Below, one piece after another: positions 5,749 to 43,468 of a DNA stretch of 43,468 bases. The notes under the pieces were generated by a model. That model ran no database searches and was not told the origin of the DNA. It worked only from the letters and a program-made list of their open reading frames with translations. How positions within the stretch are numbered: the first letter of the stretch is position 1; the number at the start of each line of letters is the position of its first letter. The stretch comes from a virus. The DNA lies in IMG/VR virus record IMGVR_UViG_3300011253_000764, positions 1 to 43,468 of that record; one strand, written 5' to 3'. A program made the translations under genes and the position numbers.

Positions 5749-6014
5749 CCACTTTCCGGAATTCGATAGAAGTATCTTTGTCGCCGCTGCTTTTCCTTGG
5801 TTCTACCGGCAATCTGTCGGAACGCCACCGGGAACGGGCACAAGCGCGCCGCTAGGTGCCGGTGCTCGCGATGCCAGTCAGCGTGCTCGCCAGCCGGGCA
5901 CGAGCACGAACCGAACGCACGCAGCTCGTCTAGCGGCATCATCCGCAGCAGCACCAACGTCGGACCGAAGTGCAGCCGACCGTGGGTCAGCCACTCGGAG
6001 TCGCGGGCGCTCAT
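5745..6014 (-). CDS. Small Cys/His-rich hypothetical protein (89 aa)
   Basis: ATG at 6014 overlaps the DnaB stop (ATGA). The 89-aa product has a Cys/His-rich core (CSCPAGEHADWHREHRHLAA, then C) that could bind zinc, and a basic C-terminus. It closes the replication block; its TGA is part of the P2 -35 hexamer. No family recognised; a helicase accessory role would fit the position only. Confidence 0.65.
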   Translation of the reverse strand: MSARDSEWLTHGRLHFGPTLVLLRMMPLDELRAFGSCSCPAGEHADWHREHRHLAARLCPFPVAFRQIAGRTKEKQRRQRYFYRIPESG

Positions 6015-7390
6015 CGACGGCGACCGGGCAGCGGGTAGTCAGCGTCTAGCACGTCGTCTGCGGTGCCGGTCCAGCGGTCGTCAACGGCGCGCAGGGTGGG
6101 CACATCGCGGAACAGCAAGAACTCGCCATCAAAGCGCACGGCCACCTCGCCGCACGGCCCGTGGCGGTTCTTCCTCACGATGATCTCCGCGTCGGTCGGG
6201 TCTGCACAGTCGTCGTAGACCGTGGGCCGGTAGACGAAACACACGGCGTCTGCGTCTTGCTCAAGGTCGCCGGACTCCTTGAGGTCAGCCATCAGAGGGC
6301 GCTTGTCGGCTCGCTGCTCACACTGCCGATTCACCTGGGCGAGCAGGATGACGTGGCACCCCATGCTCTTCGCGAGCTCTTTGATCGCCCTCGAGAGGTC
6401 GCCGACAGCCTCGCGCCGGTTCTGCCTTGGGTCGTTGGCCTGCACGAGTTGCGCGTAGTCGAGCACGATGAGATCGAGACCACCGAGCCGCGATGCGGTG
6501 CGCTTTGCTGACGCCTTGATCTGCTCCACAGTGCGGCCGGCTTGGTCGTCGATGATGAGCGGCTGCCTCTCTGCCCACCCGAGCCCACCCTGCAAGCGGT
6601 CGAACGTGTCGTTATCCATCGGTCGCTTCTGTGTCGCGCTCATGGGCGTCTTGCTCACCGAGCAGCCGGCGCGCAGGTACCACTCTTTGGCCTGCATCTC
6701 GAGCGACTGGATGTGAACCCGTCGTGCGTTCGCTCCCCACTCGAAGGCGATGCAGCCGGCAAGGGCACTCTTCCCCATCGCCGGGCGGCCAGCGATGACG
6801 GTGACGCGCCCCGGCGCGAGCCCTCCAAGCATGTCGTCTAGCGCCTGGAAGCCAGACGGGATCGACGCCGAGATAGGCGACAGGAGCTCAACGCACAGAT
6901 CCCCCACCACCTCTTCACCCGTGCGGATCTCGCGCATGGAGCGTGTGCGGAGGTCGTCGACGGTGCGCGCTAGGTGGTCTAGCAGATCCTCGGTGTCTGC
7001 CCGCTGAGACGCATCCGAGAACGCCTTCTGTGCAGCGTCCATGACGGCCCGGTTTCGCGCGAGCTTGGCCACGACCTCGGCGTAGTATCGAAAATTGACC
7101 GTGCTCGGGCAGTGATCCTCGAGCTGGGTGACGTACTCAATGCCGCCGAACTCGTCGTCGTTGTCGCCGTGCAGCACATGGATCCGCTCGGGGACGCTGA
7201 CGTTATCCACCGGCATCCCGACACGGTGCATGTCGAGCATCAGCCGCATCAGCTTGCCGTGGTCTTGCCGGTAGAAGTCTGCGGGGCCTGCGATCTCGGC
7301 GATCTCAACCAACAGCTCAGGGTCTCGCAGGATGGCGCCCAACAGTGCGCGCTCGGCTTCTAGGCTGTGTGGTCGGGTCAGGTCTTTCAT
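6011..7390 (-). CDS. dnaB: Replicative DNA helicase, DnaB family
   Basis: Hexameric 5'-3' helicase that unwinds the fork for phage replication. The ATG at 7390 overlaps the initiator stop (ATGA) and gives 459 aa, the normal DnaB length. The N-terminal domain starts with the typical PHSLEAERALLGAIL (residues 7-21). The RecA-like domain has Walker A GRPAMGKSA at 201-209, LEMQ near 230 and Walker B LIVLDYAQLV at 307-316. The C-terminal loop motif LLAQVNRQCEQRADKRP and the segment DLKESGDLEQDADAVCFVYR are diagnostic of DnaB. It lies directly behind the initiator gene, as in many phages. Confidence 0.95.
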   Translation of the reverse strand: MKDLTRPHSLEAERALLGAILRDPELLVEIAEIAGPADFYRQDHGKLMRLMLDMHRVGMPVDNVSVPERIHVLHGDNDDEFGGIEYVTQLEDHCPSTVNFRYYAEVVAKLARNRAVMDAAQKAFSDASQRADTEDLLDHLARTVDDLRTRSMREIRTGEEVVGDLCVELLSPISASIPSGFQALDDMLGGLAPGRVTVIAGRPAMGKSALAGCIAFEWGANARRVHIQSLEMQAKEWYLRAGCSVSKTPMSATQKRPMDNDTFDRLQGGLGWAERQPLIIDDQAGRTVEQIKASAKRTASRLGGLDLIVLDYAQLVQANDPRQNRREAVGDLSRAIKELAKSMGCHVILLAQVNRQCEQRADKRPLMADLKESGDLEQDADAVCFVYRPTVYDDCADPTDAEIIVRKNRHGPCGEVAVRFDGEFLLFRDVPTLRAVDDRWTGTADDVLDADYPLPGRRR

Positions 7391-8520
7391 GCGGTGCCTC
7401 GGTTGATCTGTGCGTGGGCTTGAATGAACTTCGCTTCCAGCCGATCGAGCTCGTACAGCGTCGACCGGCTCAAGTCGTTGATGGTGGTGCCGAGCCTGCT
7501 CAGCGTGGCCTTGATTCCGTGTGGCCACGTCGATGCTCGAGGGTCGGGAATCTCTCGGCGATAGAAGGCGCGGTCCTCAATGCATCGACGCAGAAAGGCC
7601 CACGCATCCCGTGCTGACCGGTCCAGATCGGCGTCACTGTTGCCGACCCGCGCGCCTTCCCCGCTGTCTTCCCAGCGCTCGGCCATCTCCAGATAGGTCT
7701 CAAAGTTGCCCGGCCTGCACACGGTGTCCCAGCTGTACGGGCCCTTCCCGGGGTGCTCGCCACGGAGCAAGCACGCTCGATCGTCTCCCGAGAGTTGCCA
7801 CCAGCGCACCACCAGCTTTACCGCCTCGGGTCCGTGGTCCTTGATGCGAGCCGCCAGAGCCACCCCACGGCCCACGCCGGGACGCAGGCGGGGCGAGCGT
7901 GGGGCTCGGTCTCCGGTGGCCTCACAGCGCCTTGTAGCTGCCTCTGTGTACACGTCCAAGACCTCGTTGAAGATCTGGATCGGTGTCATTGGCTTTTCAG
8001 GGATGACGGGTGTGACCTCGGGAGCGAGTCGCAACTGATGAACCGTCCCTCCCTGCTCAGCCTCGACAGACTCACTCACGCCGGCCGGCTTGCCGGACGT
8101 GTATGTGTCTTCTCTGTGCTCTGTGCTCTGTGCTCTGTCTCCTACGCGCTGTGGAGTTTCGCTGGCGACTGGCTGGCGACGAGCTGGCGGTTCCTCATCG
8201 ATATCCGGTGTTGCCTCTAGTTCCGGCTGGCGCTCGGCTGGCGACTGGCTGGCGGTCGGCTGGCGAATCGTGATCTCCTCACGCATCTTCCACGCGCCCT
8301 CATCCCGCAGCATCGAGCGCACCTGATGATCGGTCCAGCCCCATCGCCGTCGAAGCGTGGGGCGTCCGGGGACTCGCTCGACCTTGCCAACCGCAACCTG
8401 ATCTTCCCACCACGCCAGATCGGTGATCACTGCCGACTCGCTCCACACGCCAGCGATCTGCTCGGCGATCTCAGGCCAAGCGGACACGCGCACCCGGAAC
8501 CACGGGCTCGTCTTCTTCAT
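7387..8520 (-). CDS. Replication initiator / helicase-loader protein containing origin repeats
   Basis: ATG at 8520; 377 aa. The N-terminal third (residues 1-80) looks like a winged-helix DNA-binding domain (VITDLAWWEDQVAVGK, then GWTDHQVRSMLRDEGAWK). Residues about 85-160 form a low-complexity Gln/Pro/Glu linker. The C-terminal part is helical (IKDHGPEAVKLVVRWWQLSG, and a C-terminal helix ELDRLEAKFIQAHAQI). This order, and its position directly upstream of and overlapping dnaB, fits a lambda O / replisome-organiser type initiator. The linker is encoded by iteron DNA (8161-8265) and by a 7-bp tandem repeat (8112-8139), as expected if the origin lies inside the gene. The family assignment rests on layout, not on a signature. 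Confidence 0.7.
   Translation of the reverse strand: MKKTSPWFRVRVSAWPEIAEQIAGVWSESAVITDLAWWEDQVAVGKVERVPGRPTLRRRWGWTDHQVRSMLRDEGAWKMREEITIRQPTASQSPAERQPELEATPDIDEEPPARRQPVASETPQRVGDRAQSTEHREDTYTSGKPAGVSESVEAEQGGTVHQLRLAPEVTPVIPEKPMTPIQIFNEVLDVYTEAATRRCEATGDRAPRSPRLRPGVGRGVALAARIKDHGPEAVKLVVRWWQLSGDDRACLLRGEHPGKGPYSWDTVCRPGNFETYLEMAERWEDSGEGARVGNSDADLDRSARDAWAFLRRCIEDRAFYRREIPDPRASTWPHGIKATLSRLGTTINDLSRSTLYELDRLEAKFIQAHAQINRGTA
8112..8139. repeat. 7-bp tandem repeat in initiator gene
   Basis: CTCTGTG is repeated head to tail at 8112, 8119 and 8126, with a fourth copy CTCTGTC at 8133. Seven is not a multiple of three, so this is a DNA-level rather than a protein-level repeat. It lies 22 bp from the iteron cluster and is less GC-rich than its surroundings, so it may be part of the origin. 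Confidence 0.75.
8161..8265. repeat. Seven GCTGGCG iterons at 11-bp spacing (putative origin of replication)
   Basis: The heptamer GCTGGCG occurs at 8161, 8172 and 8183, and again at 8226, 8237, 8248 and 8259. Within each cluster the step is exactly 11 bp, about one helical turn, so all copies face the same side of the DNA. The period is out of phase with codons. The repeats lie in the linker of the initiator gene, the same placement as the lambda origin inside gene O. The initiator is the expected ligand. Confidence 0.75.
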
Positions 8521-8547: not shown

Positions 8548-8647
8548 GTGTGATATCTAGCACCCAGACGCTTGCTGACTCGACACCAGTAGGCGACCGG
8601 GGCAGGGTTGAGCGCGCCAACGCTCCCCTGCCCCGTCTATATCACAC
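8548..8647. repeat. 9-bp inverted pair flanking the initiator leader
   Basis: GTGTGATAT at 8548-8556 and its reverse complement ATATCACAC at 8639-8647 bracket the gap between the 8642-8875 gene and the initiator gene, with the strong hairpin between them. The left copy also sits in the weak dyad GGGTG...CACCC (8546-8565). They may be regulator sites; chance cannot be excluded for one pair. Confidence 0.4.
8598..8635 (-). terminator. Strong hairpin between methyltransferase block and initiator gene (terminator-like, no U tract)
   Basis: Arms CGGGGCAGGG (8598-8607) and CCCTGCCCCG (8626-8635) pair perfectly. The stem continues with GAGCG/CGCTC (8610-8614, 8621-8625) across a two-base bulge, leaving a six-base loop. 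That is 15 base pairs, nearly all G-C. It lies six bases after the stop of the preceding minus-strand gene. Neither side has a run of T, so it may be a pause site, processing site, Rho-assisted terminator or origin structure rather than a standard intrinsic terminator. Confidence 0.5.
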
Positions 8648-17203: not shown

Positions 17204-17541
17204 CCCCCTACCGCCTACACCTGCACAGCGACCACACTCTCGCATCCGCAGGCACCCGCCACCACGTAGCATCATGGGCGGCCACGAGAGCCTCACAAGC
17301 ACTCTCGCGCGCCCGTGCGTTCTGCTGGAGCCACGACCCACCGAGGATGCTGCAGGTCCGCGTCACCGGTCCCGCGTGCTGGGTCGCCGAGATCCGCAAG
17401 CGTGCAGAGGTGGCCCACGACCATCGCGAGGGTGGGCCCGAGGGATGGGACGGGTTCGACGGGCTGCCTGATGCGCTCGCGGTGTGGGGGACGCGGCCGG
17501 ACGGGTTAGCCGATGTGCCGATGCTGGAGATCAAGCCATGA
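17200..17541 (+). CDS. Hypothetical protein (113 aa)
   Basis: ATG at 17200 overlaps the preceding TGA. The product is rich in His, Trp and Arg (RLHLHSDHTLASAGTRHH near the start). A strand-rich middle (MLQVRVTGPACWVAEIRKRA) and a glycine-rich segment follow. No family recognised. It overlaps the HAD phosphatase start by four bases. Confidence 0.6.
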   Translation: MTPYRLHLHSDHTLASAGTRHHVASWAATRASQALSRARAFCWSHDPPRMLQVRVTGPACWVAEIRKRAEVAHDHREGGPEGWDGFDGLPDALAVWGTRPDGLADVPMLEIKP

Positions 17542-18053
17542 AAGTACTGTTCCTAGACTTCGATGGGGTGCTCGGGCCGGTGATGTTCGTGCCGGACGTG
17601 CGTATCACGGGGCGCGATGATGCTGCTATGCACATCGGCTGCCAAGATCAGATCCGGCGGGTCGTCGACGCCACCGGCTGCAAGGTGGTGATCTCGTCGA
17701 ACTGGCGACTCTCCGACACCGTGGACCAAATGCGTGTGTGGCTACGGCGGGCCGAAGTCATCCCCATGTGGGAGACCGTGGTGGGCATGACGCCGGAGCC
17801 GGTGCGCACGTCGCGCTTCTACTCGGGCAAGCCGCGCGGAGACGAGATCACGGCGTGGCTTGCCGAGCATCCGGAGGTGACGTCGTTCGCCATCGTGGAC
17901 GACATCGTGGATGCGTGCATGGTGAGTGATGCCGACTCGGGCGATTGGTTCCGCGACCACCTGCTAGAGCCCTGCTTTGTGCAGACGATGTGCAACCACG
18001 GCTGCACACGGGCCGATGCTGATGCGCTGATTGCGCTGCTAGGACCCGCCTAG
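17538..18053 (+). CDS. HAD-superfamily phosphatase (Swiss-army-knife RNA repair HAD type)
   Basis: HAD hydrolases use an aspartyl-phosphate intermediate. ATG at 17538; 171 aa. All four motifs are present: I FLDFDGVLG (residues 5-13, nucleophile Asp7, acid Asp9), II VISSNWR near 55, III Lys in SGKPRGDEI near 98, and IV FAIVDDIVDA near 115. The small cap and SSNWR form resemble the HAD domain of RNA-repair proteins, where it would remove end phosphates. No RNA ligase or kinase was seen nearby. Nucleotide or nucleic-acid end phosphatase is the best guess. Its last 15 bases overlap the convergent amidase gene. Confidence 0.85.
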   Translation: MKVLFLDFDGVLGPVMFVPDVRITGRDDAAMHIGCQDQIRRVVDATGCKVVISSNWRLSDTVDQMRVWLRRAEVIPMWETVVGMTPEPVRTSRFYSGKPRGDEITAWLAEHPEVTSFAIVDDIVDACMVSDADSGDWFRDHLLEPCFVQTMCNHGCTRADADALIALLGPA

Positions 18054-42933: not shown

Positions 42934-43468
42934 AACGCCACCTCCGCCCCGAGCTCACGGGCCTTGGCGATGGCGTCCGCGCGGGTTCCGATGCCGGTGG
43001 CTAGGCACTTGCCGTCAACCGCGATCCACCAGTGCCCGCGCTCAAAGCGCTTTTCGCGCTCCCCACGGTCTGGGCCGAAGCAGGCCCCGCCAACGTTGGT
43101 CCCTCCGCGCTCCGCGTCCATCCAGTCGTCTCCGTCCTCCTTATCCGCGGGGTCGAAGAAACCCCACTCCCCCGACAGCACCACACCCTCAAGCGGCTGG
43201 GCCCTGGCTACATCCGCGACAAGACCTTCGATGTCGTGGCCGGACACGTGTAGGTCGCCCTTGGATGCCCACCAGCGTGCGAGCCGTGTGGTCGCTGCGG
43301 TGTCGTCCTTGACCACGAACCCGCGCGCCTCAAGGTCCGCAACCCGCGGGTCCTTGGCGGGCTTGGCTTGCCCGGCCCCTGCGATCAGCCTCTGCGCCAG
43401 GTCGTCACCGATCGTGTACCGCATCGAGTCCAAGGAGTCGTCTAGGCGCTTGGCCTGCTCGGCTTCGC
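42930..43468 (-). CDS. Large unknown phage protein, C-terminal part (continues from base 1)
   Basis: Continuation of the gene starting at 1414; the frame enters at 43447 and ends at the TGA at 42930, giving the last 172 residues. Within this part lie RYTIGDDLAQRLIAGAGQ, a third RGFV-type segment (VADLEARGFVVKDDTAATTR), Trp-rich motifs (LARWWASKGDLHVSG) and a closing FERGHWWIAVDGKCLATGIG, TRADAIAKARELGAEV domain. A separate start (TTG at 43433 or ATG at 43424) inside this part is possible but not needed. Confidence 0.8.
   Translation of the reverse strand, partial: EAEQAKRLDDSLDSMRYTIGDDLAQRLIAGAGQAKPAKDPRVADLEARGFVVKDDTAATTRLARWWASKGDLHVSGHDIEGLVADVARAQPLEGVVLSGEWGFFDPADKEDGDDWMDAERGGTNVGGACFGPDRGEREKRFERGHWWIAVDGKCLATGIGTRADAIAKARELGAEVAL
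43448..43468. repeat. Terminal direct repeat, right copy (circular-map overlap)
   Basis: Identical to bases 1-21. See the left copy; the true circle is 43,447 bp. Confidence 0.9.

Follow-up and report, generated by a model that had tools for sequence, protein, structure and literature searches.

The question raised by this locus is why a phage gene adjoining a helicase gene carries, within its own coding sequence, two clusters of short direct repeats one helical turn apart, and whether these repeats mark the place where replication starts. Our analysis suggests that the array is very probably the replication origin of a contractile-tailed phage, placed where the initiator gene of that phage encodes its linker. 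The stretch analysed, referred to here as the window, comprises 43,468 bases and is the entire record of an uncultivated virus of bacteria. The bases 1-21 and 43448-43468 (GCTTGGCCTGCTCGGCTTCGC) are identical, and these printed ends suggest a complete circular or permuted genome. The window genes scanned include those for tail sheath, baseplate, portal, large terminase and DNA methyltransferase, which points to a contractile-tailed phage. At 17484-18053, Pfam recognises a HAD_SAK_2 domain (3.9e-23), which is of the Swiss Army Knife RNA repair type. The original prediction had placed the initiator gene directly before dnaB, which the DnaB matches in Pfam and phrog confirm, and the inferred dnaB start codon overlaps the initiator stop codon (ATGA). 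The GC-skew plot proposed there as a check was uninformative: the skew is lowest near 13 kb, at a switch in gene orientation, and does not point to the array. Upstream of the initiator gene, an operator-like inverted repeat (GTGTGATAT at 8548-8556 and ATATCACAC at 8639-8647) and a perfect 10-bp GC-rich inverted repeat (CGGGGCAGGG / CCCTGCCCCG, within 8598-8635) are present. The features of the locus are listed in Table 1.

Table 1. Features of the putative origin and its surroundings in the window.
Feature	Position	Strand	Basis
dnaB-type replicative helicase gene	6011..7390	-	Pfam DnaB_C 4.7e-72, DnaB N 2.8e-23; phrog_19 2e-95
Initiator gene, 377 aa (P0001): N-terminal helix-turn-helix (HTH) domain, disordered linker, C-terminal domain	7387..8520	-	ORF and AlphaFold2 model
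C-terminal domain, residues 175-290, presumed helicase contact	7651..7998	-	Model; family matches of relatives
Presumed DNA unwinding element, with (CACAGAG)x4 at 8112-8138 (plus strand (CTCTGTG)x4)	8095..8144	-	Low stability, tandem repeat
Terminal element CTCCACAGCGCG, made up of a degenerate final iteron and CGCG	8145..8156	-	Found at the ends of complete arrays
Cluster II, three CGCCAGC iterons, 11-bp step	8161..8189	-	Kept in relatives
36-bp spacer, fixes the 43-bp (four-turn) offset	8190..8225	.	Offset kept in relatives
In-phase middle element AACACCGGATA (gene sense), family trend AACGCCGRAA	8202..8212	-	Row display, consensus
Cluster I, four CGCCAGC iterons, 11-bp step	8226..8265	-	Kept in relatives
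Conserved N-terminal domain, residues 11-82, predicted iteron binder	8275..8490	-	Alignment of relatives, model

On the plus strand, the heptamer GCTGGCG starts at 8161, 8172 and 8183 and then at 8226, 8237, 8248 and 8259 (whole array 8161-8265), and all steps inside either cluster are exactly 11 bp. Since the gene is encoded on the minus strand, the repeat reads CGCCAGC in gene sense and the four-copy cluster comes first, followed by the 36-bp spacer, three further CGCCAGC, a degenerate copy, CGCG and a 50-bp stretch containing (CACAGAG)x4. The distance of 43 bp given in the original prediction is correct as the start-to-start offset of the clusters (8183 to 8226), but not as a gap, since 36 bp separate the heptamers. 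GCTGGCG occurs 50 times on both strands of the window as opposed to 21.9 +/- 5.0 times in shuffles, and a search of the 43,468 bases for chains of at least three 7-mers with steps of 8 to 39 bp returned only this array (chain of 4, step 11). When synonymous codons were permuted 20,000 times with the protein fixed, at most 5 CGCCAGC per gene were obtained compared with the 7 observed, and a chain of 4 was reached in none of 2,000 such shuffles. The predicted arrangement of three plus four repeats at 11-bp steps is thus borne out by the positions, the uniqueness of the chain and the codon shuffles. The statement that the protein is unrepeated, from which the original prediction derived selection at the DNA level, holds only in part, as RQP and PA recur in rotating frames. 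The array thus contains helically phased direct repeats as in iteron-type origins, and it lies within the initiator coding sequence as in lambda-type origins, while its heptamers are non-palindromic and do not form the inverted repeats of about 19 bp, bound by dimers, of the lambda type.

The structure of the encoded protein (P0001) was modelled with AlphaFold2 from 17 relatives; a fold from the single sequence was poor (pLDDT 40). In the model, pLDDT is about 83-97 for residues 11-80, mostly below 50 for residues 82-162 and mostly 72-97 for residues 175-290. The modelled N-domain is all-helical with an HTH (helices 53-60 and 64-72), and the predicted disordered linker coincides in the DNA with the iterons and the melting tract. 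P0001 itself has no significant family match in Pfam or phrog, nor do the initiators of the relatives in Pfam. The C-terminal parts of three relatives (L038, L035 and L051) match phage initiation families (1.6e-6, 1.5e-4 and 3e-4, respectively), and the families matched by the C-termini of relatives are phrog_345 and phrog_678 ("replication initiation O-like") and phrog_19658; homology of the initiator to phage O-like proteins is possible in view of the C-terminal matches of relatives (1.6e-6 and 3e-4), P0001 itself having no such match. Neither a sequence search nor a fold search with the model gave a significant match for P0001 in the PDB, and no solved relative of the N-domain was found there. 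When compared with a library of predicted viral structures, the model comes closest to an HTH protein from an uncultured marine virus (2e-5), and a "replication initiation and membrane attachment" protein ranks lower (E 0.15). Close relatives of the full 377-aa protein were absent from the phages, viral contigs and genome contigs searched, a clear relative of the N-domain was absent from 50,697 phage and 72,556 plasmid records, and a pattern search of GTDB genomes yielded no confirmed N-domain.

Relatives of the locus were collected from the DNA side and from the protein side. The first DNA pattern, three heptamers at 11-bp steps, matched 19 viral contigs. Across the DNA searches, an N-domain of about 80 residues that aligns with that of P0001 is encoded beside the array in the matches whose two clusters lie 43 bp (or 43 plus 11k) apart (the window, L008, L009, L011, L012, L013, L015, L020, L021, L022, L024, L071, L073), and matches in other arrangements do not encode it. 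With the pattern CTCCAGC, two members with the same combination of array and N-domain were found, together with L069, a truncated contig in which the array is followed by CACGCGC and a tract rich in A and C but which stops short of the region of the domain. A looser pattern gave one further member (L028) as well as unrelated arrays without N-domain (L027, L029-L034). The protein search with the N-domain added relatives with differing iteron sequences which the DNA patterns had not found (L035, L036, L043, L051-L055, L058, L060), and in every one of them lag 11 gives the highest signal between lags 4 and 30. N-domain and array are therefore linked in every complete locus, whichever side the search started from. 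Because the relatives have a common ancestry and near-duplicates occur among the loci (L008, L009, L013 and L022; L015 and L020; L052 and L053), there are fewer independent cases than rows.

In 17 of the 18 family genes, lag 11 ranks first; in the window it ranks second, behind the 7-bp tract. In a stricter scan, the lag-11 value was higher than in any of 200 synonymous shuffles for 12 of the 18 family genes and for none of 12 other window genes, and any other lag reached this in at most 3 of the 18. The signal is weak in L052 and L053, where 9 and 16 of 1,000 synonymous shuffles reach the observed value. The spacing between the clusters is conserved as well, across many viruses whose relationship is only distant: the cross-cluster lag is 54 (43+11) in most relatives and 55 (44+11) in L035 and L036, while in L051 the lag of 55 ranks second, and in most relatives 54 or 55 is the top of lags 35-59. 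A script that measured the offset in 13 arrays gave 43 bp for 10 of them and 43 or 44 bp plus whole 11-bp steps for the other three, the longer values being due to skipped degenerate copies. In L043 (4989-6206), the initiator linker contains several repeated iteron-spacer units (CCTACCGGTCG type), apparently an amplified array.

Three elements absent from the original prediction were recognised in addition, namely the CGCG end, the (CTCTGTG)x4 tract and the in-phase element in the spacer (Table 1). The middle element AACGCCGRAA is loose, with weaker support than the iterons. The terminal element takes the form CYCC(A/C)CACGCGCG or near it in complete arrays, with the variants CACGGGCG in L051 and CACGTGCGCG in L021, and none was identified in L043. 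An easily melted stretch follows the CGCG-type element in 16 of 16 loci tested; a melted tract beside the iterons is also a feature of lambda-type origins. In the window, only 5.2% of the 40-bp windows within 1.6 kb are less stable than this stretch, and the corresponding share in 15 relatives is 0-2.6%. The stretches are mostly A/C-rich, with a mean gene-sense composition of 39% A, 31% C, 17% G and 13% T; that of the window has just 48% A+T, as low stability is a relative measure in high-GC genomes. As regards the neighbouring genes, DnaB directly follows the initiator in the window, L060, L038, L042 and L055 and is found at a distance of 1.8 kb in L054. In L043, the initiator is followed by a DnaC-like loader, and in several relatives the next gene encodes a small protein without a match of known function, for which "loader" is a guess from position.

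Taken together, the single N-domain family, the spacing kept while the iterons change, the melted tract, the C-domain families and the helicase or loader neighbours support the predicted set of initiator-bound iterons in an initiator gene beside dnaB. From these features we infer the following course of iteron binding, its stoichiometry, unwinding and helicase recruitment at an active origin. The N-terminal HTH domain would bind each 11-bp iteron with one protomer per helical turn, as the one-turn direct repeats suggest one protomer per site. Seven or more protomers would thereby come to sit along the same face of the helix, the two blocks being held in register by the four-turn offset of 43 bp, and the resulting complex would strain or open the adjoining DNA on the far side of CGCG. 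Attached through the disordered linker, which is encoded by the very DNA of the array, the C-terminal domain could then recruit the phage DnaB encoded by the next gene, and in relatives with a loader gene it would presumably be the host DnaB that is recruited. This is the most parsimonious interpretation, since initiators arrayed on DNA, a tract that opens and a helicase that is loaded are also the components in lambda and iteron plasmids (PMC5043065).

Other functions of the array must be weighed against an origin. As an autoregulatory array, it would let the initiator bind its own coding sequence and block transcription or sense copy number by handcuffing, with the origin elsewhere. For split parC arrays, repression of the promoter to which they belong has been described (PMC5016525), and a protein bound within a transcribed region would be a roadblock. 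However, an operator needs no melting stretch, yet 16 of 16 loci have one, the arrays lie mid-gene rather than at the promoter, and their spacing is constant despite differing neighbours, so that we regard autoregulation in place of an origin as improbable; alongside origin function it may occur. The nearest look-alike of the array is found among centromere-like partition sites. In R1 parC, 11-bp repeats in two groups around a promoter are bound by ParR (PMC5016525; PMC9426499), and in tubC split blocks are bound by the winged-helix protein TubR (PMC5016525), so that short direct repeats divided by a spacer into two blocks, and a small DNA-binding protein that reads split, phased repeats, are known from these sites. 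They are, however, situated upstream of par operons and outside replication genes, and their small binding proteins have a filament-forming partner, whereas the present array lies inside a gene adjoining dnaB. The neighbour of the DNA-binding protein is DnaB and not the NTPase partner of ParMRC or TubZRC systems, no ParM, ParA or TubZ relative was found in the part of the window gene set that was scanned, and the C-terminal domains of relatives are of the replication type. Because of this gene context, a use in partition is very improbable.

It could also be that the iterons form the origin but are read by a host factor or another phage protein instead of the N-domain, whose binding is itself a prediction for a domain without a solved relative among those searched. 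This is quite improbable in view of the linkage of N-domain and array in every complete locus, and base 2 of the iteron covaries with HTH residues (Fisher p about 0.015 each, from hand-tabulated counts with ancestry ignored), which is suggestive of a pairing between domain and iteron. Neutral tandem slippage in a low-complexity linker might be considered because the linker is predicted to be disordered and holds another tandem repeat, (CTCTGTG)x4. It can hardly be credited, however, as the bases between the heptamers vary while heptamer and 11-bp step persist, the 43/44-bp offset and the CGCG end recur across loci with different iterons, and lag 11 beats synonymous shuffles.

The reading as an origin raises the question of how far the layout extends. 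In the cultured Streptomyces phages Eastland (gp41) and Raleigh (gp39), CGAATCG-type repeats also occur at 11-bp steps with one 43-bp step, although the N-terminal domain, the iteron and the initiator family differ from those of the window. In the Eastland initiator gene, CGAATCG is found at 371, 382, 393 and 436 (43 bp from 393 to 436), and in Raleigh, according to the printed rows, CGAATC starts at 448, 43 bp after 405. The two phages are related and count as one case, which was noticed after several genes had been examined. A lag-11 signal is present in the cultured phages Raleigh, Eastland, JKSyngboy and Zucker, and it is absent from most other tested members of the Raleigh/Eastland initiator family and from most of the ordinary O-like and DnaB-linked initiators of cultured phages tested. 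In Arthrobacter phage Zucker (L094), partly palindromic GTTCG-type repeats with lag 11 are located at offset 361 of the initiator gene and precede tandem repeats of CATCC. Other initiator-like genes that contain 11-bp repeats were seen in L030 and L075, where an A-rich tract comes after them, and in L016, with repeats alone; in L075 (1060-1200), three CGGAACTCCAG repeats and a degenerate fourth at 11 bp precede a TAAAG-rich tract. Intergenic TGGCGAAGGTY repeats at 11-bp steps follow an apparent AAA/RepA-like helicase gene in L034 (3310-3470; also L027 and L029). In the literature searched, which covered few subscription journals, neither 11-bp iterons nor the 11/43 layout were found for phage origins. 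We consider it possible, with rather more doubt than confidence, that several unrelated initiator families share a general, undescribed class of phage origins, in which two blocks of one-turn iterons, offset by four turns, are followed by CGCG and a melting tract within the initiator linker and the initiators form a continuous array of one protomer per turn.

For phages that have no cultured representatives, the locus thus offers a candidate origin together with a DNA-binding family as its probable reader, and the 11/43 signature would be a simple means of locating origins in uncultivated phage genomes. With their matching pairs of initiator and iterons, the relatives form a natural series for testing specificity and spacing, and since the spacing recurs in cultured Streptomyces phages, the question of the helical array is accessible at the bench.

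Among known systems, iteron plasmids have longer iterons at intervals of about two turns and use Rep proteins as initiators. For RK2, P1, F, R6K and pSC101, direct-repeat iterons in helical phase, bound by monomers and adjoined by an opening region, have been described (PMC5043065). The helical phase beside an opening region is common to these and to the present array, which differs in its one-turn repeats and its position within a phage gene. In bacterial oriC, DnaA boxes are followed by a DnaA-trio tract that is bound as a single strand (PMC10797057); the likeness is one of layout, an array of initiator sites and then a tract, as there is no DnaA homology here. The likeness to lambda O/P put forward originally applies to position and layout, but not to the type of iteron. 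The lambda ori consists of 19-bp near-perfect inverted repeats bound by O dimers, with P as the loader (PMC5043065), and it is situated in gene O, so that in both cases repeated sites inside the initiator gene are adjoined by a melted tract and then by a gene for helicase recruitment or the helicase itself. In contrast to lambda, the repeats here are non-palindromic, direct and one turn apart in two blocks offset by 43 bp, the phage has its own DnaB, and P0001 is without a sequence match to O families. The locus is thus likely an origin inside an initiator gene, for which the lambda-like placement is known and the one-turn, non-palindromic iterons of the 11/43 layout appear to be new.
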